Source: a virus. From it: DNA of 35,789 nt. Of the stretch, positions 2,694 through 35,789 are shown one piece after another. The stretch is taken from IMG/VR virus record IMGVR_UViG_3300031251_000070, positions 1 through 35,789 of that record; one strand, given 5' to 3'. The notes beneath the pieces were generated by a model, which saw only the letters and a list, made by a program, of their open reading frames with translations, was not told the DNA's origin and did not search any database. The position numbers were made by a program, and so were the translations under genes. Position 1 is the stretch's first letter, and every line of letters starts with the position of its first letter.

Positions 2694-3030
2694 CCTTGCC
2701 GGCGCTGCAGCATTCCTCAAGTGCGGGGAAGATACTGTGCTGCAGATCATAGCGTCCGATCCTACATTCCCGGCAGCAAAGCCCGGCAAAAGATGGGTAT
2801 TTATCGATATTGACCTGGCTGACTGGTTGAGAACACAATACGGCACATGTCGGGCATCGAAAAAAGACTCAACACCTACTACTCGAACTTCACGTTCCGG
2901 GGGAAGCGATATCGACAGAGTCTTGGGACTTCCGATGAGGAGACAGCGCAAAGGCGCTGCGACGAGCTCCGCGCAGAACTCTGGCAGCGAGAAACCACAC
3001 CTGTCAGTAGTACGTTCGGAGATGCAGTAA
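2680..3030 (+). CDS. xis: Excisionase-like helix-turn-helix protein
   Basis: This is a 116-aa protein whose first 55 residues form a MerR/AlpA-like winged helix: LDLAGAAAFLKCGEDTVLQI, then PGKRWVFIDIDLADWLRTQY. That fold is used by excisionases and recombination directionality factors. The remaining 60 residues are basic and Ser/Thr-rich, and are encoded in a different frame across the first 184 bases of the integrase gene. The ATG is inside the end of the DUF5131 gene. The position immediately upstream of int, in the same transcript, supports an Xis role (inference). A shorter functional product ending before the overlap is possible. Confidence 0.75.
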   Translation: MQTLDLAGAAAFLKCGEDTVLQIIASDPTFPAAKPGKRWVFIDIDLADWLRTQYGTCRASKKDSTPTTRTSRSGGSDIDRVLGLPMRRQRKGAATSSAQNSGSEKPHLSVVRSEMQ

Positions 3031-3887
3031 ACCTCTGGCTGGCCAGCGGCGACAAAGACGCATCCGATCGCTACCGCATACGCGCATTCAACCTGTGGGA
3101 CAAACCGCTGGAAAACATCACCAGCGAGACACTCGAACCCATCCTCTCGAAATACACCGGCAGCACACGAAACCGCTGCATCAACCTTTTAACTGCCATC
3201 CTCAATTGCGCCGTGCGCCGTGGCTGGATCAAACGGGTACCGGACATGCAAAGGGTCAAGGTAAAGAGCTCACGCACGCGCTGGCTCACCTATAACGAAT
3301 GGGAACGCTTGGAAGCCGAGCTCGCCGGCAACCTGAAACAGATGGCACGCTTTGCGGTAACCACAGGCCTGCGCGAGAACAACGTCATCGAGCTCGAATG
3401 GTCGCAGGTCGACCTGCAGCGGAAAGTCGCGTGGATCCATCCGGACCAGGCCAAAGGAAAGAAAGCGATCGGAATCCCGCTGTCGGCGAAAGCCATCGAA
3501 GTACTGCGCGAGCAGCTGGGCAAGCATGAACGCTTCGTGTTCGTTTACCGCGCAGATGATGGCCGGCCGTGGCACAAAGTCACCAAAGCCAGCACCAGGT
3601 CATGGAAGATGGCACTTGTGCGTGCCGGCATCGATGTCGTGCCAACTGGCAAAAAGAGCGCAACCGGCCAGGAGAGATTCACCAGTACATTCCGCTGGCA
3701 CGACCTGCGTCACACCTGGGCGAGCTGGCACATCATGAATGGCACCCCACTGGAAGTACTGCAGAAGCTCGGCGGGTGGAAATCGCTGGCCATGGTGATG
3801 CGTTACGCGCACCTGGCGCCGGAATATCTGGCCAACTTTGCCGACAACATGGCCAACAAAAAAGAGGTGGTCCAGGCAAGCGGCTGA
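2847..3887 (+). CDS. int: Tyrosine-recombinase integrase
   Basis: This 346-aa site-specific recombinase integrates and excises the phage. Residues 8-48 look like an N-terminal arm-binding domain (NTYYSNFTFRGKRYRQSLGT), followed by a SAM-like core-binding domain to about 140. The catalytic domain carries R176 (TTGLREN), a lysine near 203-206 (AKGKK), H285-x-x-R288 (WHDLRH), W311 (GGWKS) in the second His/Trp position, and the nucleophile Y320 (MRYAHL). The set is complete. The attachment site lies directly downstream. The gene is at the end of the repressed rightward operon, overlapping xis by 184 bases. Confidence 0.95.
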   Translation: MSGIEKRLNTYYSNFTFRGKRYRQSLGTSDEETAQRRCDELRAELWQRETTPVSSTFGDAVNLWLASGDKDASDRYRIRAFNLWDKPLENITSETLEPILSKYTGSTRNRCINLLTAILNCAVRRGWIKRVPDMQRVKVKSSRTRWLTYNEWERLEAELAGNLKQMARFAVTTGLRENNVIELEWSQVDLQRKVAWIHPDQAKGKKAIGIPLSAKAIEVLREQLGKHERFVFVYRADDGRPWHKVTKASTRSWKMALVRAGIDVVPTGKKSATGQERFTSTFRWHDLRHTWASWHIMNGTPLEVLQKLGGWKSLAMVMRYAHLAPEYLANFADNMANKKEVVQASG

Positions 3888-4095
3888 CATGTGGCAACTA
3901 CATGTGGCAGACTGTGCAGGTTTACAGCAGTATTGTACCGGATTTAAACCGAATTTCCAGATTCGCGCCGCCGTAAGTCTTTGATTCTATGGTGGGCGGT
4001 ACTGGGATCGAACCAGTGACCCCTGCCGTGTGAAGGCACGCATCCTGCCCGTGGTTACTTGATTGCAGGGCGCATGTGGCAATTTAGTGTGGCAA
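3888..4095. repeat. Integrase arm-type binding sites flanking attP
   Basis: There are four copies of a CATGTGGCAA-like decamer in direct orientation: 3888-3897 (CATGTGGCAA), 3901-3910 (CATGTGGCAG), 4073-4082 (CATGTGGCAA) and 4086-4095 (AGTGTGGCAA). Within each pair the spacing is exactly 13 bp, and the pairs sit on either side of the tRNA-like core. This is the layout expected of P and P' arm sites bound by an integrase's N-terminal domain. The first copy starts right at the int stop codon. Function is inferred from geometry and location. Confidence 0.75.
3990..4037 (-). other. attP: attP core: 3' portion of a tRNA-Val(CAC)-like gene
   Basis: Read on the minus strand, the segment contains the anticodon loop TTCACAC (anticodon CAC, valine) and the 3' anticodon stem GGCAG. 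It continues with a perfect T arm (ACTGG-TTCGATC-CCAGT), the 3' acceptor strand ACCGCCC and ACCA. Homology to a tRNA stops at the 5' side of the anticodon stem, where position 27 would no longer pair, and no D arm or 5' acceptor follows. That is the usual structure of an attP that restores the 3' end of a host tRNA gene on integration. The host attB is therefore predicted to be a tRNA-Val(CAC) gene, with strand exchange near the anticodon region. Confidence 0.85.
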
Positions 4096-4103
4096 TCGCT
4101 GCC

Positions 4104-4112
4104 TTATCCACA
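4104..4112 (+). promoter_or_regulatory. DnaA-box-like nonamer
   Basis: The sequence TTATCCACA matches the consensus DnaA box TTATNCACA exactly. It lies just outside the second pair of integrase arm sites, between attP and the end of the leftward operon. A single box in a 35-kb genome may be chance. No cluster of further boxes or an AT-rich unwinding element was seen beside it. Confidence 0.2.
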
Positions 4113-4120
4113 GGCGGATT

Positions 4121-4702
4121 CTACCATCGATACCAGGCGCCCACACCGACAAAGGCGGCCGGATCTCCACCTGAAAGCGGCGCGTCTACCGAAGCGATCG
4201 CGCCGATGTGGATCTCTTTCACCTGCAGCAGGCCTTGCTTGGCCTCGATGCGCAGCGCCGGCTCAATGCCTTGCGCTGTAGCCTTCTCACCGATGTATGC
4301 ACCTACCTCGCCGTGGTAATCCAGCGCCAGCCAGGGCAACGGATCGGTGCGGTCGTAGGTGACAGACTCGCCCGTTTCCTTGTCAATCGTGGTGGTAATG
4401 GTATGCGGATGATCGTCTGCCTTTACTTTACTGCTGGCCAGGACCTCGACGTTGTCGTCAGCGATGACTGCAGGCGGCAACTTGAGGCCGTTTTTTAGCC
4501 CAGGTCCGCCGGCATACACCTTGACCGGATTCTTGATCACTACAGGCTTTTGTGGCGTATGCGCAACTTCTGGTGCCGGCGTTGCTATAACGGTTTTTCC
4601 GACTTCTGCCGGCGCCGGTTTCAGATGCCACCATATGCTGAATGCGACCACGGCGATCACTCCCAATCCGATTTCTATCTTCGAGCGTTTTGAAAGGCTC
4701 AT
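4121..4702 (-). CDS. Membrane-anchored protein of unknown function, 193 aa
   Basis: The start is the ATG giving MSLSKRSKIEIGLGVIAVVA, in which a short positive N-terminus precedes one transmembrane helix (about residues 10-25, ending FSIWWHLKP). A long Pro/Ala/Val-rich periplasmic linker (PAPAEVGKTVIATPAPEV) follows. The C-terminal domain has alternating hydrophobic residues and ends AAFVGVGAWYRW, a terminal aromatic pattern reminiscent of outer-membrane or beta-rich proteins. It is the last gene of the leftward operon, 34 bases after the C1 peptidase and next to attP. That position is often used for lysis accessory or lysogenic cargo genes. I do not recognise a family. A spanin-like role is conceivable but not shown. 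Confidence 0.7.
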   Translation of the reverse strand: MSLSKRSKIEIGLGVIAVVAFSIWWHLKPAPAEVGKTVIATPAPEVAHTPQKPVVIKNPVKVYAGGPGLKNGLKLPPAVIADDNVEVLASSKVKADDHPHTITTTIDKETGESVTYDRTDPLPWLALDYHGEVGAYIGEKATAQGIEPALRIEAKQGLLQVKEIHIGAIASVDAPLSGGDPAAFVGVGAWYRW

Positions 4703-17509: not shown

Positions 17510-18727
17510 TCAGGTCACCGCAGTAACTGCAGCACCAGCGCGATCAATAATCAGCGTGTAACCGCTGACGGTATCCCGCAGCGCGCGATAACTCATGCTG
17601 ACCATCACGTCCTGGTTGATGCCTTGGCCGTTCACCTTGGCCTGGCTGTATTTCACATTCGGTAAAGTGAACACATAGCCATTCAGACTGCCGTCATTGA
17701 TGCGGAACGACAGGCTGGAAGAGGTATTGTTAATGAACTTGTTGTACATGGTGGCATCGGAGAAATAGACCTCGATGTCGCCGGTGATGTCGAGCGTGCC
17801 GCTTCCTATGCCGATATTTCCTAGCGTGCCAACAGCATCCTGACCACGCAGGTTATTATTGATGTCCATGGACAGGCTCTTGAGGAAAGTTCCACTCAGC
17901 GCAGCGCCGCCTTCCAGGAAGTTAGCCATGTTGCTGACCGAGTTCATCACCCCATTGGCGGTGCTGGCTGTCACGGTTGCGTTGAGCAATGTCCCTGCCT
18001 GTACGCTTGCCGCTTGCCCCATGAAATCCATGTCTCCGGTCAGGATGGATCCTGTCGCAAACTTGAAGCCCAACTTGTTGAGCGTCATGCCCTTGTAAGT
18101 GATGTTTTGCGCGATATCGGCGAAGTTCTTTTCCAGTGTGAAGCTGGATTGGGTGCTACCGTTGACCACACGTGAAGCTGAAACCGTGACGGCTGCGCCG
18201 CCAGCTCCGGTCGCAGCAGCAAATGGCGTGCCCTGGAATGTCAATACGGTAGCTGTAGGAGCTACGCTGGTGGATACCTGTGCCCATATATTCTGCCCCG
18301 GGATGGTAGATCCTGCGATCTTCACCCACTGACCCATCACCAGATTGGTAAAGATGCTCGCGCCGGAAGTCGCAGAGCCTGCGGTCAATGTACCGGCAGC
18401 AAAAGTGGCTGAAGTAGGAATCGCCACGCCGACGCCATTGACACCAAAGACAGTCCATGCCCCTTGCAATACTGCAGCCAGGAAAGGGTCGAATTCTGCG
18501 TAACTCATCTCGAAGGTAAGCCCGCCATTCGCTTCAGCATCCAGCAGCGGCAGATCGGCGATCTGACGATCGGAGCGTATCTCCTTGCTGGTATCGGTCT
18601 TGATGTCGTAGTTCAACGACTCGCCGGTGATGCGCAGCGCGTAACAGGAAGATGCGCTAACCGGAGTGCCGAATGTAGCTTCCGGTTTGATACGCAGGCC
18701 TAAGCGACTTGAAGATGCTAATGACAT
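17510..18727 (-). CDS. V: Major tail tube protein
   Basis: The protein is 405 aa. Its N-terminus LGLRIKPEATFGTPVSASSC and motifs LRITGESLNYDIKTDTSKEI and NGGLTFEMSYAEFDPFLAAV are those of the phage tail tube (Phage_tube_2-like) family. A Thr/Ala/Gly-rich insert (about 105-190) separates the N-terminal part from the second half (FTLEKNFADIAQNITYKGMT), which continues with GDMDFMGQAAS. A C-terminal strand region contains NDGSLNGYVFTLPNVKYSQA. It forms the tube of the non-contractile tail. The low-complexity surface insert would be a plausible acceptor for O-linked modification (speculation). Confidence 0.9.
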   Translation of the reverse strand: MSLASSSRLGLRIKPEATFGTPVSASSCYALRITGESLNYDIKTDTSKEIRSDRQIADLPLLDAEANGGLTFEMSYAEFDPFLAAVLQGAWTVFGVNGVGVAIPTSATFAAGTLTAGSATSGASIFTNLVMGQWVKIAGSTIPGQNIWAQVSTSVAPTATVLTFQGTPFAAATGAGGAAVTVSASRVVNGSTQSSFTLEKNFADIAQNITYKGMTLNKLGFKFATGSILTGDMDFMGQAASVQAGTLLNATVTASTANGVMNSVSNMANFLEGGAALSGTFLKSLSMDINNNLRGQDAVGTLGNIGIGSGTLDITGDIEVYFSDATMYNKFINNTSSSLSFRINDGSLNGYVFTLPNVKYSQAKVNGQGINQDVMVSMSYRALRDTVSGYTLIIDRAGAAVTAVT

Positions 18728-18736
18728 GATGGCTCC

Positions 18737-19186
18737 TTATAGCGCCGTATCCGGCGCGGTTTCACTGGTTCGGTATTCGGCTGTCCATAGCATGGTGGCT
18801 ATGCCGATGGGTTTTTCTGAATGGGCGTCCACTTCAATGCTTGTTTCAGCCAGTCTCAGATCCTTGATCAGGGGAGCGAATGCAACAATATGCCCTGCCA
18901 GGGACGATTCAACTTCCTTGCAGATGGTGTCTAGCGTGTCATCGATATTACTGACCTGCTTGGCAACTGCCTCGATCCTCACAATCAAAGTTCTGTCTAC
19001 CAGGCGCGGATAACCCATGCTTGCAGATTCGTTGGTTTCTTCCTTTGTCGAGACGCATACGCACGGCAGTTCTTGATCGGTTAAAAGATGCGAGCGCGTC
19101 TGGAAGACATTCGCACCTGTAGTAGTCAAGCCGGTGATCTGCAGTGCTACAGCCTCCCTGATCTGCTGGCGGACGTGATTGGCCAT
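18737..19186 (-). CDS. U: Tail terminator protein (U-like)
   Basis: This 149-aa protein begins VRQQIREAVALQITGLTTTG and contains FQTRSHLLTDQELPCVCVST, then VDRTLIVRIEAVAKQVSNID and TLDTICKEVESSLAG. This is the alpha/beta pattern of tail terminator proteins that cap the tail tube and join it to the head. Gene order (after the head-tail joining protein and before the tail tube) supports this. Its start overlaps the previous stop as TAATG. Confidence 0.82.
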   Translation of the reverse strand: MANHVRQQIREAVALQITGLTTTGANVFQTRSHLLTDQELPCVCVSTKEETNESASMGYPRLVDRTLIVRIEAVAKQVSNIDDTLDTICKEVESSLAGHIVAFAPLIKDLRLAETSIEVDAHSEKPIGIATMLWTAEYRTSETAPDTAL

Positions 19187-19452
19187 TATTGCAACTCCAG
19201 TTGCAGCAATGTCAGCCCGGTGCCATCCGGCTCTAGAGAAGATACGGTGTAATTCGTGCCATTCACTACGACGACGGTACCGTGAGCAGCCACAACCGTC
19301 GACTCCACCAGAAGTACCGGATTGCTGCTGCTGACCATGCCCAATGTCTCGATGTATGCCTTATCGAAGATACCAACGACTGCCACTCCGCCTACCGTTG
19401 CAGGCACACCGAAATCTGCAAAATAGGCGGCAAAATTCTCTGTGAGTGCCAT
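19186..19452 (-). CDS. Head-tail joining protein (FII-like)
   Basis: This is an 88-aa beta-rich protein: LTENFAAYFADFGVPATVGG, then VVGIFDKAYIETLGMV and LLVESTVVAAHGTVVVVNG, ending GTGLTLLQLELQ. It matches the FII / phage attachment type of head-tail joining proteins in pattern and position. The ATG shares its A with the stop of the methyltransferase-glycosyltransferase gene (TGATG). A GTG one codon earlier is also possible. It therefore depends on translation through that enzyme gene. Confidence 0.8.
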   Translation of the reverse strand: MALTENFAAYFADFGVPATVGGVAVVGIFDKAYIETLGMVSSSNPVLLVESTVVAAHGTVVVVNGTNYTVSSLEPDGTGLTLLQLELQ

Positions 19453-20987
19453 CACGCCACCGCCTGTTCTTTGGGCAAGATCTTGTCCAGCACGAAATCC
19501 GCGATGACATCAGGTGTGGCACTCGCCATGCAGGCAGAAGCGCCTGTGGCAGTATCCTTGCTGCAGAAGGCCAGCGTCGCACCATGCACGCGATGGCAAG
19601 GGTGACATGCCACGCTCGGGGCGCTGATGGCTGCAGTATTGATCCAGTGCTTGGTCAGGTTCTCACTGCTGCTATGCGACAGCATCACCACCTTCAGCAT
19701 GGCCTCGAAAGCGACCGCATTGGCGATCATGCTCTCCGTGGCCACCACGGCATCGGCCAGCATGCAGAAAGCCAGGGCGATGCGAGTTGGCCATTCGCGG
19801 CCGACAACCACTGCATGCGGCTCGATCTCGTCCAGATCGTAGCGGATATCTCCCAGCACCACGCACACGACTCCGGCATCAGCCATGCGCTGCATGAAGC
19901 GCTGTGCATGTGGCCAGGTCTTTGCCGGTCCGCTGCCGGCAGGATTGAGCACTACCAGCGGACCATCAGGCAGGAGCTCGCGCAACTTTTTCGCCGCATC
20001 CATCTCCGCTTCGGTCGGGTAGTACTTCTGCCTGAAATCATGCGGCAGATCCGCATAGTCGTGGATCATTTCCAGATAGTTCTTGTCTGCGAAACGATGA
20101 CGCAGTGCATGCGGCAAAAAGAACTCATTGCTGCTGGGATGGTAAAGCAGTCGCTGTTCCACGCTGCCGATCAGGTTCACCCACTTGTCATGCTTGGCCG
20201 CTTCATATGCCCAGAATGCCAGCAGGTCATCGTCATCGAGCACGCCGTTGGGTATCATCACCAGGCGGTCGATATTGGGATCGTGCGCCAGGACTTCGGC
20301 GCCGGTGATCGCCACATAGGCCGTGACGTGATAACCCTGTTCTTTCAGCACAGCGCACGGGCTGGATGCCCATATGGCATCCCCCAGCGCGCCCACGCGC
20401 ACCAGTCCGGCGGTCTTTTCCGGTTTCGTGACGGTGAGGTCTGTCTGGCCTGCGCCTGGCGCTTCCTTGCGCAATACCAGCAAAAAGCTGTATTCGTCGT
20501 CCTGATCCCGCACCTGGTTCTCCAGCAGAGTCCAGTCAGGGAATATAAGGCGGCAGACTTCGATGATGTCTTGCGGCCTGAAATCATGCTTGTGGTCGGG
20601 ATTGGATCCATACTCGCCGATGTTCGGGTACAGATCGGCATGGGGTAGATACAGGACAAGATGGCCGCCGACTTTGACGACGCGGAACCATTCGCGCAGG
20701 GCGATATGCCAGTCTTGTATATGCTCCAGCAGGTGCGACGAGAACACATTGTCGATGGCACTATCGGCGAACAATGACAGCCTTTCAGCAGTCCCTATCA
20801 TGATGTCCGGCTTCATCTGCACGCCGAACAGCTCGATATCCTTGCCGCTATCCAGCCCGATCAGATGCGGCCATACCTTTTTCGCGCCGCAGCCTATATC
20901 CAGGCCGCCGCGAGAAAGATACGGCAAAACCTCGAAGCGGATCTTGTCCGCTTCGAGGCCATTGCTAGTTTGTAACGACCAGACCAC
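19452..20987 (-). CDS. Methyltransferase - family 9 glycosyltransferase fusion in the head operon
   Basis: This 511-aa protein has two enzyme domains. Residues about 15-175 are a class I SAM methyltransferase: motif I LDIGCG (29-34), an acidic end of strand 2 in IGLDSGKD, then NVFSSHLLEHIQDW and VVKVGGHLVLYLPH. A linker to about 193 leads to a GT-B fold of the heptosyltransferase (GT9) type: LVRVGALGDAIWASS (195-209), then VVLNPAGSGPAKTWPHAQRF and VVLGD. ADAVVATESMIANAVAFEAM and a Cys-rich end (C461, C464, C475, C486) complete it. The GTG start abuts the capsid stop (TAAGTG). It lies where lambda-like phages have only head-tail joining genes, so it is an added gene. A role in modifying virion proteins, or host surface sugars, is inferred. 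Confidence 0.9.
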   Translation of the reverse strand: MVWSLQTSNGLEADKIRFEVLPYLSRGGLDIGCGAKKVWPHLIGLDSGKDIELFGVQMKPDIMIGTAERLSLFADSAIDNVFSSHLLEHIQDWHIALREWFRVVKVGGHLVLYLPHADLYPNIGEYGSNPDHKHDFRPQDIIEVCRLIFPDWTLLENQVRDQDDEYSFLLVLRKEAPGAGQTDLTVTKPEKTAGLVRVGALGDAIWASSPCAVLKEQGYHVTAYVAITGAEVLAHDPNIDRLVMIPNGVLDDDDLLAFWAYEAAKHDKWVNLIGSVEQRLLYHPSSNEFFLPHALRHRFADKNYLEMIHDYADLPHDFRQKYYPTEAEMDAAKKLRELLPDGPLVVLNPAGSGPAKTWPHAQRFMQRMADAGVVCVVLGDIRYDLDEIEPHAVVVGREWPTRIALAFCMLADAVVATESMIANAVAFEAMLKVVMLSHSSSENLTKHWINTAAISAPSVACHPCHRVHGATLAFCSKDTATGASACMASATPDVIADFVLDKILPKEQAVA

Positions 20988-22973
20988 TTATGCCAGCCAA
21001 TCGTCGATCTTGGCGATGCAGGCTGGTTGACGCAGCTGCATGTCAGCGAACTGGCTGAGAGTGATCTGCACCTGGCCCGTTGAAGCCAGAGAATACGGAT
21101 CAACAGTCACATCAGGTGCACCGAACAAGCCCAGCACTGCCATCGACCAGTCGGAACCGAACAGAGAAGCCGAGCATATGGTGGTGCTGGTGCCCTTGGT
21201 CAGGTTGTTGGGTACGTTGTTGCTGACCACTGCGCGATAACCGTTGAGCGGTGTATCGCCGTTCTGCCAGATCATCGGCAGGTTGGTGGCAAACTGGGTC
21301 TGCTTGAACTTGCCACGCACCTTGGTGTTGACCAGGTAGCCGGAGTAGCGGTCGGGTTCTGCATTGGCATTGGCGCATGCAGATTCCAGATCCACCACAT
21401 TGCCCCAGGTTGGCGCGATACCGTTGGTGCCACCGACCACAGTGCCGATGCCGGTGACGTTTCGCAAACCCTTGATTTCTGCGCCGGTACCAGCACCATT
21501 GATGCACTGGTTTTCCAGCAACACGGCGGCGCCGGTCACCAGGTCATCACGGATAAGCGCATCCAGCGGCATGGAAGCCTGTATCAGCGCCTGCTTGGAT
21601 ACCTGCGTATAGGCAGAGATCCGATGTGGTGACAGCGTTGCCTTGGCGGTCAAAGGACCGGTCTCGGAAGCGGAGCCGATTTCAGTGACCAGACCCAACG
21701 TGCCTGCAGTCGCCTTGCGCGGCAGATCCACGTTGCTGGTCAGACCTGCAAGCATGGTCACACCAAGTTTGCCCATGGACATGGCATTGCGCAGTACGTC
21801 AACGTACAGGTCGGTGCGCAGATTGGTCGCAACCAGGTTGCCCGCCTCAGTGCCGGTGCCTACGTTGAAGTCACGGTTCATGAACTCGAACGGCACAAAG
21901 AACCCTTCTGCAGATTTGCCCATAATGGATTCGACTGCGCGCGAGCATTCCAGCTCCAGGCCTGCCTTGCTCCAGTCCCCTGACATACTGGCCAGTAAAG
22001 CGCGACCGAAGCTGTAACGCTCAATCTCGCGGCCGTTCATGCCGATATGAAGCTGGCTGGTATCGCTATGTTTAGATACCATGCGGGACAGGATTAGATC
22101 CGTGAATTGATTGACGGTCGTCTTGCCGTCTCGCACGGCCTTTGGGCCGTCGTCAGGTTGTAGAAACTTGGCATATTGCTCTGCCAATGCTTGGATGCCG
22201 TCACGGCGCTCGATCTCGAGTTCGGCCGGCGTTTTTTGTACAGGATCTGGCATTTTCTTTTCCTCTTTCAGGATGATGATGGTAGGCGGGTCGTCTACAG
22301 TGACGGTTTCCGCAAGGGCTTGTGTTTCGGGTGCATCTGCTGCTTGAGGTTCAGGATCGACGCCAGCCGAACGCCCGACACCTACAGTGGTGTCTGCCGG
22401 GATAGGCACGATGGAAGCCTCGAAGGGCGTCCAGCGCGTCACGACATACACTGGCGGCTCATCACCATCACCGCGCGCAGCTGCCTGGCCGCTGCGGTTA
22501 TAGTCATCGCCGTATTTAGCGCGCATCTCCTGCGCGAATTCTTCGCCGGTCAGCTTGCGCTTCGGCGTATAGGAATACTGTGGCCCATCGGTATCAGGCG
22601 GTTCTATCTCCTGGATCTCGTCGATGAAATAGCCCACGGATACCAGGCTGCGGATACCATCCTGCACATCGGTCAGGATCTCCTGACCCAGCTGGCCACG
22701 TGAGAACTGCACCATGCCGCGCAACACGTGGTCATCATCTACTTGTGCCATCTTCACCACGCCGATCTGGTCATCGGTGTTGTGGTTGAGCAGCAAAGGA
22801 TGGCGGCCATCGCCCAGGCGCGACATATCCACGGCATCAGCCGCATGTGAAAGTATCTCTATGCCCCACCATCTCTCGTATGGTGTCTCACTGCTGATGG
22901 CGATCTCTATCTCGCCATCGTCATTGGCATCGCGTTTCTGTATTGTGGTAGTCCGTTTAAATTGGGTGGGCAT
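20988..22973 (-). CDS. Prohead protease - HK97-type major capsid protein fusion
   Basis: This 661-aa protein has residues 20-200 as an HK97-type prohead protease: GRHPLLLNHNTDDQIG contains the probable catalytic His (H64), and GIRSLVSVGYFID contains the serine (S112). The family motif is RWTPFEASIVPIPADTTVGV. A Pro/Ala/Thr-rich linker with KEEKK follows, then the scaffold-like helix (TPAELEIERRDGIQALAEQY) and an HK97-fold capsid (GFFVPFEFMNR, TTLGLV-like TAGTLGLVTEIGSASETGPL, and TQVSKQALIQAS). An internal ATG at codon 241 (22253) is preceded by AAAGAGG at good spacing and would yield a 421-aa capsid protein by itself. A GGAGAG site precedes the first ATG. Confidence 0.93.
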   Translation of the reverse strand: MPTQFKRTTTIQKRDANDDGEIEIAISSETPYERWWGIEILSHAADAVDMSRLGDGRHPLLLNHNTDDQIGVVKMAQVDDDHVLRGMVQFSRGQLGQEILTDVQDGIRSLVSVGYFIDEIQEIEPPDTDGPQYSYTPKRKLTGEEFAQEMRAKYGDDYNRSGQAAARGDGDEPPVYVVTRWTPFEASIVPIPADTTVGVGRSAGVDPEPQAADAPETQALAETVTVDDPPTIIILKEEKKMPDPVQKTPAELEIERRDGIQALAEQYAKFLQPDDGPKAVRDGKTTVNQFTDLILSRMVSKHSDTSQLHIGMNGREIERYSFGRALLASMSGDWSKAGLELECSRAVESIMGKSAEGFFVPFEFMNRDFNVGTGTEAGNLVATNLRTDLYVDVLRNAMSMGKLGVTMLAGLTSNVDLPRKATAGTLGLVTEIGSASETGPLTAKATLSPHRISAYTQVSKQALIQASMPLDALIRDDLVTGAAVLLENQCINGAGTGAEIKGLRNVTGIGTVVGGTNGIAPTWGNVVDLESACANANAEPDRYSGYLVNTKVRGKFKQTQFATNLPMIWQNGDTPLNGYRAVVSNNVPNNLTKGTSTTICSASLFGSDWSMAVLGLFGAPDVTVDPYSLASTGQVQITLSQFADMQLRQPACIAKIDDWLA

Positions 22974-23056: not shown

Positions 23057-23605
23057 TCAAAAACGCACGATCCACTTGTCGAACTGCGTGCGGTTGATGC
23101 GCTCACCGAACGCTTCATTGACGGCTCTGTCGGCCGAGGTGAGAGTGCCGCAATCATCGAACCACATGATGCCTCCAGCCACCATCAGCGGAGAAAAACA
23201 ACGGATGGCCTCCTTGATGCTCTGGTATTGGTCGGCATCGATATGCACAAAAGCGATCGGCGGCATCACTGTCGGCATCGTTTCCGGAAAGATACCGACA
23301 TGGAATACTGCAGAAGGGATCAAGGCGCGCACCGCAGCTTCTTTGACGTCACCAAAGTCGCCCACCTGGTGGTAATCATGTTCGCCGCAAAAGGGAATGC
23401 CGGTGAAAGTGTCGAAAAGATGCAATTCACGCCCCTGCTCTGTGGCTATTTCAGCAAGATGGCTTGCGGATCCGCCTTTATAGACACCCAGCTCGACAAA
23501 AGCTCCGGGCGGCGTGTTGGCGGCAAGCGCACACATCTGCAGGATGGTAGGTTTGCCGATCAGGGAATGGGGTTTATCCGGCAGGGAAAGTGTAGACGTC
23601 TCCAC
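23057..23605 (-). CDS. TylF/MycF-like SAM-dependent O-methyltransferase
   Basis: This 182-aa class I methyltransferase has motif I FVELGVYKGGSA (E38 to A47), the strand-2 acidic residue in LHLFDTFTG (D65) and the metal-binding pattern FVHIDADQYQSIKEAI (D123 and D125). MWFDDCG (D150, D151) completes the set. These are the features of macrocin O-methyltransferase (TylF) relatives, Mg2+-dependent enzymes that methylate sugar hydroxyls. The GTG start is two bases after the portal stop, so translation is coupled. The gene separates portal from capsid, which normally adjoin, so it is an inserted cargo gene. A sugar on a phage protein or on the host surface is the likely substrate (inference). Confidence 0.88.
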   Translation of the reverse strand: METSTLSLPDKPHSLIGKPTILQMCALAANTPPGAFVELGVYKGGSASHLAEIATEQGRELHLFDTFTGIPFCGEHDYHQVGDFGDVKEAAVRALIPSAVFHVGIFPETMPTVMPPIAFVHIDADQYQSIKEAIRCFSPLMVAGGIMWFDDCGTLTSADRAVNEAFGERINRTQFDKWIVRF

Positions 23606-23607
23606 TT

Positions 23608-25173
23608 TTACTTCTTTTTTGGAGTTTCGTTTGGGTCATCGTTTGGATCCGGCATCGCAGCAAGACCACTGGCGGAAGTAAATTGTGACGGGTCCAGGCC
23701 GGCCTTTACCATTTCCGCATGTTCCTGTGCCAACTCATCCAGGATGTCGTCGAAATCTTCTCCCTGCTCTGCAGCCAGGCGGGTGCGGCTGGTGATGCCC
23801 AGCTCGACCGCTGATAAAGCGCCATTGATCTCTTTGACCGGATCTACCCAGCGCCAGCGTCTACCCTGGAATTTGCTGGCATTGAGGAACTTGGAGAGTT
23901 TTTCCGCCGGCAATGCACTGCCGCTCTCCTCGAAAGTGATATCGCCCCGCAGTAATGCTATGGCCAGCCATTCCTGATATATTTCGGAGCTGAATTTTTC
24001 AATGAACCAATCCTGCAGGATCATCCATTGCTCGCGCTCGCCCAACTCCGCGATTCGCGCACTGCTGTAATTGACATCGGTCATATCTCCGGAAAGGTTG
24101 TGCGTCGCTACATCCAGGCCGGATGAAATGCCGCGCATGCACGCCTTGACGAAGCTCTCATAATTGGCATGGGGATATTCCGGATTCCATGAATTGAGGG
24201 TATAGCCTGGCGGCAGCTCAAACAGCTCCCCGGCCTCGACGTTCATGTGCAAGTTACCTGCGGATGTCTGGCTGTCCGCCATTGTTGCCGTGGCCTCCGT
24301 GGACTCTTCCGAGCGTTCAAGTGCTGCGATCTTGCTTGCGCCGATGCGCGCTGCGATCACTGCGCTCTCATTGAAGCCGCCCAGCTGCTGGGCACGTATC
24401 AGTATGGCGTGGAACCATGTATATCCCCGTGCCTGCTCTGCCCGCTCCGGAAGATAAAGGTGGATGATGTCTGAAGCCGGAACGCGCTCCATTTCGGGAG
24501 AGCCAAGCGCGACCATGGTATCTCCAGGATGGCGCTGCCGGATCCAGTAGGCCACCGGCCTACCGCTGGTATCCATCTCCACTCCCTGGCGAATCACGCC
24601 ATTGGGTGTGATCATGTTCAGGTTCTCCACCAGGCGGTCTGCTTCCAGCAGCTGCAAGGCGAACCCGTAAGGAAGATCCCTACGGCGTACCTTGCGCACC
24701 AGCGCTTCACCGTCGCGCGCCACCGCTTTGACCGCAACCCTGCACATCATGGGAAAGCTCATTTTTCCGGTGATGTCCGAACTCTTTCCCCACCGCTGCC
24801 AGTGCGTCTCGATGGTGTCGTTCGCAGATTTGTCCAGTACCGGCCTTTCTTTTTTCTTTGCAGGTGCCGCCACATAAGCCCTGACCTGCAGCATTGGGCC
24901 GTTGCGGCCGATGATGTTTGTGGCGCACATGGAAAGGAAGCGTCTGCCGTATTCATTATTCTGTGCCAGTTGCCGTGCGCGGGCGCGCATGATGATCAGA
25001 CTGCCGTCGAGGTCGGTATTGACCGACCCTGACCAGCTGGCCATGCTGGCAGTCAGGCGACTTACCTGGCCGCCGGCGAAACCGATAGAGCTGCCATTTC
25101 CATACAATGCCGAAAGATCGCGCTTCGCAGGCTTTCTTGAAAAAATGCTGTTCCACCAATCCTTGAGCGCCAT
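23608..25173 (-). CDS. Portal protein (lambda B family)
   Basis: This 521-aa protein matches the lambda portal family: an N-terminal MALKDWWNSIFSRKP and SLIIMRARARQLAQNNEYGR, then DITGKMSFPMMCRVAVKAVA. DGEALVRKVRRRDLPYGFAL, DIIHLYLPERAEQARGYTWF and QLGGFNESAVIAARIGASKI follow. ATHNLSGDMTDVNYSSARIA is near the end. It forms the dodecameric ring through which DNA enters the head. The ATG with an AGGG site eight bases upstream is chosen; a TTG two codons earlier overlaps the previous stop. Confidence 0.94.
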   Translation of the reverse strand: MALKDWWNSIFSRKPAKRDLSALYGNGSSIGFAGGQVSRLTASMASWSGSVNTDLDGSLIIMRARARQLAQNNEYGRRFLSMCATNIIGRNGPMLQVRAYVAAPAKKKERPVLDKSANDTIETHWQRWGKSSDITGKMSFPMMCRVAVKAVARDGEALVRKVRRRDLPYGFALQLLEADRLVENLNMITPNGVIRQGVEMDTSGRPVAYWIRQRHPGDTMVALGSPEMERVPASDIIHLYLPERAEQARGYTWFHAILIRAQQLGGFNESAVIAARIGASKIAALERSEESTEATATMADSQTSAGNLHMNVEAGELFELPPGYTLNSWNPEYPHANYESFVKACMRGISSGLDVATHNLSGDMTDVNYSSARIAELGEREQWMILQDWFIEKFSSEIYQEWLAIALLRGDITFEESGSALPAEKLSKFLNASKFQGRRWRWVDPVKEINGALSAVELGITSRTRLAAEQGEDFDDILDELAQEHAEMVKAGLDPSQFTSASGLAAMPDPNDDPNETPKKK

Positions 25174-25175
25174 AT

Positions 25176-25733
25176 TCAAACCCTGAATTGTATTTTGCGG
25201 CCGATACCTTCACCGCGCGCCAGCTTGGCCGCGTTTTCCTCGTTCTGCACTTCCAGCTGGTAACGGTTCTGCAGTTTGAGGAGATCTGTGATGGGGATAT
25301 ATTGCATTCGCCGTCCGGCGATCTCGTATTGCGCGACGGCCGGATCGCGTGATTCCAGCCACGCTTTGATCGCGTCCAGCATCTTTTTCGCGTGACTGCG
25401 GCCATCAAACGCATCAGTTGATGTGCCGGCGCGGTAATCTGGAAGCAGTGTCACGCTTCCGGAATCTACGTCATATTTCTCGTTGCTGCCGCCTTCCACC
25501 CAGGCCATCCATGTATAGTCGCCGGCTGTATAAGCTACGGTTGTAGCTGCGGCAACTACAATAGAAAAATCGGCGCCAGAGGCTGCGGCATCGATCTCGA
25601 AACCGCCTGCGGCACTCTTGAAGCTGTATTTAAGCGTCCACGTTCCTGCAGGGTAATCGGTGAATGTGCGCGTCCATTTCCATGTGCTGCCAATGCGCAG
25701 CTGCGACGGCTCATTGTTGGGGATGGTTGTCAT
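25176..25733 (-). CDS. Head-tail connector region protein (gpW position), Ig-like N-terminus
   Basis: This is a 185-aa protein. Residues 1-100 are beta-rich with an Ig-like pattern (WKWTRTFTDYPAGTWTLKYS, YTWMAWVEGG, YDVDSGSVTLLPDY). Residues 115-185 are helical (HAKKMLDAIKAWLESRDPAV, then YIPITDLLKLQNRYQLEVQN). The second part and the position between terminase and portal correspond to the gpW-type head-tail joining proteins of lambda-like phages, but I cannot assign the family firmly. The stop overlaps the portal start region. Confidence 0.65.
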   Translation of the reverse strand: MTTIPNNEPSQLRIGSTWKWTRTFTDYPAGTWTLKYSFKSAAGGFEIDAAASGADFSIVVAAATTVAYTAGDYTWMAWVEGGSNEKYDVDSGSVTLLPDYRAGTSTDAFDGRSHAKKMLDAIKAWLESRDPAVAQYEIAGRRMQYIPITDLLKLQNRYQLEVQNEENAAKLARGEGIGRKIQFRV

Positions 25734-35431: not shown

Positions 35432-35789
35432 ATGAACGTCCGGGGAAAAATCATCCATCGCATTGTTGAGCACGGGCCCGAAAACCCTGTGCGTTTTGAA
35501 GCTCTGGAAGATGCAACGATGGTAGATCCAGAAACTCTGCAGGAAGTCTTGAACGTCATGGTCAATGAAACCAACCCGGCCATTCTGCGCAAGCGCATTA
35601 ACAAAGACGACGAGGTTTATTTCGTTTATTGGACAACACTTGTACCAATTCTCCCAGACGTCTCACAAGCCCCGCAACCAATTGCAGCAACAACAGCTGC
35701 AAAATCAATCGAACTTGCACCACCAATGGAGGTATCCGTTATGCCAGAAGCAAAATCAAAAACTCACCTGATGCTGGAATACCTGGCCG
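35432..35789 (+). CDS. Two-domain winged-helix-like protein (5' part, continues at position 1)
   Basis: This is the N-terminal part of the gene whose 3' part opens the window. It begins MNVRGKIIHRIVEHGPENPV and RFEALEDATMVDPETLQEVL, a small winged-helix-like domain, and continues in frame through the repeated 254 bases to the right edge. Joined through the circle it is 246 codons plus stop. The ATG is two bases after the preceding stop. The full description is given with the 3' part. Confidence 0.75.
   Translation, partial: MNVRGKIIHRIVEHGPENPVRFEALEDATMVDPETLQEVLNVMVNETNPAILRKRINKDDEVYFVYWTTLVPILPDVSQAPQPIAATTAAKSIELAPPMEVSVMPEAKSKTHLMLEYLA
35536..35789. repeat. Terminal direct repeat, right copy
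   Basis: This is identical to 1-254 apart from C at 35662 in place of T at 127. It marks the circular joint of the molecule. Confidence 0.93.

Follow-up and report, generated by a model that had tools for sequence, protein, structure and literature searches.

Organisation of the head operon

The stretch of DNA analysed here (the window, 35,789 nt) carries its first 254 nt again at its end (1-254 and 35536-35789) as a direct repeat with one mismatch, which marks it as a phage genome that is complete or nearly so, representing either a circularly closed assembly or a molecule with terminal redundancy. Its minus strand encodes, in order, TerL, a head-tail joining protein, the portal protein (23608..25179; PF05136, E 7e-91), a TylF-like methyltransferase, an HK97-type major capsid protein with an N-terminal protease-like region (20988..22973; PF05065, E 3e-26; phrog_617, E 4e-116), the methyltransferase-glycosyltransferase (GT9-like) fusion that is the subject of this study, a head-tail attachment protein (Phage_attach, 19186..19455; PF05354, E 2e-13), a tail terminator, a tail tube protein (17510..18727; PF18906, E 1e-40) and further tail genes. 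On the plus strand, the translation of ORF 2847-3887 appears by eye to be tyrosine-integrase-like, from which the phage is probably temperate, and that of ORF 1671-2693, likewise judged by eye, resembles phage Gp37/Gp68-type (DUF5131) proteins.

The fusion gene (19452..20987, minus strand) is one uninterrupted ORF of 511 aa with a GTG start. As the original prediction described, without naming the strand, this GTG stands directly at the capsid stop codon (TAA; a junction of 0 nt) and the gene is inserted between capsid and head-tail joining genes, its own stop codon lying in a 4-nt overlap with the Phage_attach gene, which likewise starts with GTG. The assigned start is supported by the relatives, which align from residue 1 and begin MTW or MVW. 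That the ORF is not a product of chance follows from the presence of relatives on 113 IMG/VR stretches, from dN/dS values of 0.04-0.26 (12 pairs) and from catalytic positions that are invariant among 90 non-redundant relatives; since the low dN/dS values apply to both halves, the protein has been kept by selection in each of them. An antisense ORF (19446-20648, plus strand, 400 aa) was rejected as a shadow of the real gene. Between 16800 and 26200 the minus strand yielded no promoter-like site; terminator-like sites in this region are few, fewer than expected by chance, with none on the minus strand between portal and fusion.

Fold and family of the two domains

An AlphaFold2 model of the fusion, built from an alignment of 45 relatives, contains two intact domains (mean pLDDT 94.2, pTM 0.90), in keeping with the earlier description of a class I methyltransferase continuous with a GT9-like domain, the quoted motifs of which all occur in the translation. 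The N-terminal domain, residues 1-177 (20457..20987, minus strand), is predicted to be a class I SAM methyltransferase: the fold spans residues 3-177, the best structural match is 3dli (Z 16.3, residues 3-174) and Pfam Methyltransf_11 (PF08241) matches residues 29-112 (E 1.2e-10). The C-terminal domain, residues 187-506 (19470..20429, minus strand), adopts a predicted GT-B fold whose nearest structures belong to GT9, namely 3tov (Z 23.3, 286 residues aligned, rmsd 3.9), WaaF (Z 22.7), TibC (Z 19.5) and WaaC (Z 19.0). The GT9 family model PF01075 is not matched by the window protein alone, but 17 of the 45 relatives do match it (E 0.01 or below, lowest 5e-6); the GT9-like assignment, weak from the single sequence, thus holds up for the family of relatives as a whole and by modelled structure.

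Five residues of the transferase domain (D203, K356, R402, E418 and N423) are invariant in the 90 non-redundant relatives. D203 aligns with the conserved GT9 Asp in all four E. coli enzymes compared and K356 with the Lys in three of the four, indicating that the catalytic residues, whose loss had been named as grounds for abandoning the prediction, are retained. E418 and N423, in turn, occupy the places of the D and H in the signature found in WaaC, WaaF, WaaQ and WaaU (written D-x-(G/A)-x-x-H, also D-[ST]-x-x-x-H).

These features bear on one alternative reading of the gene, namely lysogenic conversion or superinfection exclusion, in which a (methylated) heptose-type sugar would be placed on host LPS and would block the re-adsorption of related phages. 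Such a role is consistent with the presence of WaaF and WaaC among the closest solved structures, with the integrase-like ORF of a phage that is probably temperate and with hosts that are likely Gram-negative. Against this, the fusion scores 15 bits with the LPS heptosyltransferase II model of NCBIfam (TIGR02195), below the curated cut-off of 134.6, all relatives have E and N in place of the signature D and H, and the gene lacks its own promoter-like site on the minus strand. Taken with the fold and alignment results, the E418/N423 substitutions and the low score lead us to regard the fusion, as judged from sequence and model, as a GT9-fold subfamily of its own, joined to a methyltransferase and lying outside the WaaC/WaaF equivalogs.

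Towards its C-terminus the protein carries a Cys4 cluster, C461-x2-C464-x10-C475-x10-C486 (19530..19607, minus strand; 97-98% conserved, n = 90), which is a probable metal site and had been overlooked in the original prediction. The cluster is not present in E. coli WaaC, WaaF, WaaQ or WaaU, and clusters of the form CxPC...C...C occur in two GT9 proteins encoded in host genomes (L289 and L296). Its use as a marker of TibC-type as opposed to LPS-type GT9 enzymes was rejected on account of these host proteins, and the cluster is consequently no evidence for a protein acceptor.

Distribution of relatives

A search for the same domain pair in other phage head operons had been put forward as a check on the prediction. 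Besides the 113 IMG/VR stretches, 36 further loci were found in the genome collection, some matching one half only. When loci were required to match over more than 300 aa and to have upstream sequence of 1 kb or longer, a capsid gene stood upstream of the fusion in 89 of 92, and in every one of the 57 whose upstream sequence reached 5.5 kb; only L078 and two short contigs, L051 and L059, depart from this. In L078 the fusion (2754-4190) stands between TerL and portal, and a GT2-like gene occurs near 9.6 kb of the same contig.

The relatives occur in two unrelated head modules, those of window-like siphoviruses (type A) and those of Xuquatrovirus-like podoviruses (type B). The fusion starts 52-426 nt past the capsid match in type A, and the order in type B is an N4/Xuquatrovirus-like capsid gene (phrog_1357), small genes, the fusion, a cluster C2 gene or SU10-type adaptor, and head closure Hc3; profile comparison gave no link between the C2 gene adjoining the fusion and the SU10 adaptor. 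The cultured type-B relatives E. coli PTXU04 and HelliStehle and Vibrio 219E41.1 share this order, with small genes only in the slot. In a tree of 90 sequences the two types fall on opposite sides of a single branch (support 99), so that one transfer between head types suffices to explain their distribution. Midpoint rooting puts type A inside type B, although this does not prove that transfer ran from type B to type A.

How regularly the gene is carried was estimated from the capsid side, using samples of 80 loci obtained by alignment searches, the window capsid alone as query having retrieved three loci only. The fusion or its transferase half is present in 42 of the 51 type-B loci with enough sequence and in four more cut by the contig end (46/51), a fraction that may be an overestimate because loci were ranked by similarity to carriers. 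In type A the fusion is present in four of the 43 loci with at least 3 kb downstream, a patchiness which indicates that it is dispensable for assembly.

The gene could on this account be a moron-like passenger without a role in the virion, inserted behind capsid genes by chance, and both the type-A figures and the absence of the gene from L125, whose capsid is 50% identical, are of the kind that such a passenger would produce. Its near-universal occurrence at a constant slot in type B, the other glycan enzymes that accompany it and the retention of the capsid-proximal place through exchange between head types are not, and we consider a chance insertion very improbable. The fact that two unrelated groups of phages keep the gene in their head modules also weighs against conversion of host LPS, since conversion genes of the moron type would be likely to change location, and that explanation is accordingly rated as unlikely, if a little less so than chance insertion.

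Four type-B relatives (L200, L201, L205 and L225) match over the transferase part only, and in L200, L201 and L225 a transferase-alone ORF (355-356 aa) occupies the fusion's slot. From these variants it seems that the core activity is the transfer of sugar, and that the methyltransferase domain may be dispensable in some relatives. Amongst phage isolates (INPHARED) the transferase half has no match, and isolates and plasmids match the methyltransferase half only. Apparent prophages with the gene nevertheless occur in cultured bacteria, among them Paraburkholderia rhynchosiae WSM 3937, Aromatoleum anaerobium LuFRes1 and Pseudothauera rhizosphaerae CC-YHH848, and the hosts of carriers are likely Gram-negative. 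A contig from a MAG labelled Thaumarchaeota (L106, 7846-11311) encodes a type-B-like capsid (35-39% identity) and, some 1.1 kb downstream, a distant fusion relative (27%); either the virus is archaeal or the contig was mis-binned.

Companion glycan enzymes

Between portal and capsid the window encodes a second enzyme, missed in the original prediction, a TylF-like (sugar) O-methyltransferase of 182 aa (23057..23605, minus strand; PF05711, E 1.7e-14) whose relatives in the PDB include NovP and MycF. These two enzymes methylate sugars, their substrates being attached deoxysugars. In eight relatives (L066, L068, L092, L214, L215, L229, L249 and L273) the fusion likewise has a TylF-like neighbour, and the interval from capsid to fusion holds GT2 genes in five (L086, L044, L265, L269 and L276), FkbM methyltransferases in L046 and L067, and PF01973 MptE-like together with methyltransferase genes in L046 and L093. 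NCBIfam gave no name for the MptE-like proteins; PF01973 covers Maf flagellin-glycosylation proteins too.

Three type-A phages without the fusion have ORFs of about 180 aa in the slot between capsid and attachment genes (L143 9578-10138, L150 6787-7332 and L151 8814-9341), with weak matches to PF01973 (MptE-like) under the curated cut-off; these are possibly alternative glycan genes in the fusion's slot. In another type-A phage (L009, 3668-7204) the gap between portal and capsid encodes a DUF2341 protein of 663 aa and a protein resembling GDSL hydrolases, and this gap looks like a variable cargo site.

The companion genes bear in turn on whether some other late-infection target, be it phage DNA, a host protein or a small molecule, is glycosylated and methylated instead. 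GT-B enzymes are known to modify DNA in other phages (cited in PMC12619734), and the specificity of a methyltransferase cannot be read from its fold. Yet no DNA base-modification gene was recognised in a non-exhaustive reading of the window ORFs, the gene is placed with capsid genes and not with replication genes, and its companions resemble sugar O-methyltransferases, leaving such a target with little probability.

Proposed function

We propose that the fusion is a two-domain enzyme which is made together with the capsid and glycosylates a virion protein with an O-methylated sugar, a reading to which we assign a probability of roughly 0.7. GT9 enzymes of known function use ADP-heptose. In the mechanism envisaged, the GT9-like C-terminal domain would take a nucleotide sugar supplied by the host (ADP-heptose or another activated sugar related to it) and attach it during synthesis to one of the virion proteins, the likeliest acceptors being the major capsid protein and the tail tube; the N-terminal methyltransferase would O-methylate the transferred sugar, the TylF-like methyltransferase encoded upstream of the capsid might add a second methyl group, and the particle would emerge coated with methylated sugar, with particle shielding or altered adsorption as the putative benefit. 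We infer the donor, the acceptor, the order of the reactions and the benefit, and the changed donor-site residues make ADP-heptose less certain as the donor. The tail tube is put forward as an acceptor by analogy with mycobacteriophages.

Several lines of evidence point to this reading. The fusion abuts the capsid gene and overlaps the attachment gene, both folds are predicted to be intact with transferase catalytic positions invariant across the 90 relatives, TylF, GT2, FkbM and MptE-like enzymes as well as transferase-only variants appear in the same slot in relatives, and the companion TylF-like gene is, by sequence comparison, homologous to the O-methyltransferase of cluster O mycobacteriophages and placed like it. 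Counting against it, no phage isolate encodes the transferase, type-A phages carry the gene patchily, the TibC-type barrel is missing from the fusion, and GT9 precedents act mostly on LPS, and on protein only in TibC-type enzymes. The original prediction, whose idea of a sugar-plus-methyl modification made along with the virion is supported here, left the target between the virion and host LPS, and here its two branches part. A virion target is favoured, and LPS modification is much less likely, because the family stays in head modules even across exchange between unrelated ones and has a parallel in mycobacteriophages, and also because its score lies far below the cut-offs of LPS heptosyltransferase models and the D/H signature is missing.

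With rather less confidence, but still as the likelier case, we extend this reading to a GT9-based, O-methylating glycosylation of virion proteins encoded by a head-module gene that is near-universal in a large and mainly uncultured group of Xuquatrovirus-like podoviruses, exchanged, apparently once, with siphoviruses of unrelated capsid. Phage-encoded virion glycosylation as such is known; what would be new is a widespread GT9-like variant, in about 100 other, mostly uncultured phages. If correct, phage-encoded capsid glycosylation would extend from mycobacteriophages to phages of Gram-negative bacteria, the fusion would provide the first known case of a GT9 enzyme with a virion substrate, and sugar-coated particles would be widespread in environmental phages of Pseudomonadota by way of a different enzyme class that moves between unrelated head types. 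The cultured lysogens that carry the gene make the hypothesis directly testable.

Comparison with known systems

In the literature searched, mostly open-access papers, we found no report of a GT9 enzyme in phage heads. Amongst enzymes of this fold, WaaC, WaaF and WaaQ share with the fusion the overall architecture (Z 19.0-22.7 for WaaC and WaaF) and the catalytic Asp and Lys; the fusion differs in falling far under their curated cut-offs, in having E/N for D/H, in its fused methyltransferase and in its lack of host LPS gene context. TibC shows that a GT9-type fold is able to act on protein (PMC4358343). The TibC/AAH (BAHT) enzymes resemble the fusion in fold, catalytic Asp, the T/S-xxx-K spacing of the donor site and a C-terminal Cys4 cluster, placed like the iron finger of TibC, although the spacing of the latter is x2, x15, x11 in TibC as opposed to x2, x10, x10 here and similar clusters occur in host GT9 proteins too. 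TibC has an N-terminal beta-barrel where the fusion has a methyltransferase fold (residues 3-177), and the partner of TibC/AAH is an autotransporter, which that of the fusion is not. The companion enzyme, for its part, matches PF05711 as TylF, NovP and MycF do, but is shorter (182 aa) and lies in a phage head operon.

The closest parallel in layout is provided by mycobacteriophages. The window TylF-like protein matches 58 phage isolates, 56 of which are mycobacteriophages. In Schuy (cluster O) the homologue, gp34 (pairwise E 6e-16), lies directly after the portal gene and is followed by three glycosyltransferases, a protease and the capsid gene, and Yoshi (cluster F) encodes a fusion of GT2 and TylF domains. 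According to papers citing Freeman et al. 2023 (PMC11600133, PMC12363180, PMC12619734), the enzymes of the cluster O set modify capsid and tail tube; in the literature consulted, a few mycobacteriophages are described as glycosylating their virions, with glycans bound covalently to the capsid that shield particles from antibodies. The cluster O (Corndog, Schuy) and cluster F (Che8, Yoshi) sets thus share with the window a homologous TylF-like O-methyltransferase, placed in cluster O directly after the portal, together with, in cluster O, glycosyltransferases encoded close to the capsid gene and, in cluster F, a glycosyltransferase-methyltransferase fusion. Their glycans are reported as demonstrated, whereas a glycan on the window phage is predicted. 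The transferases of Schuy and Yoshi match GT2 or GT25 models or none, whilst that of the window is GT9-like, joined to a Methyltransf_11-type domain and encoded downstream of the capsid, so that the window system resembles that of mycobacteriophages in layout and in one enzyme, but not in its transferase.
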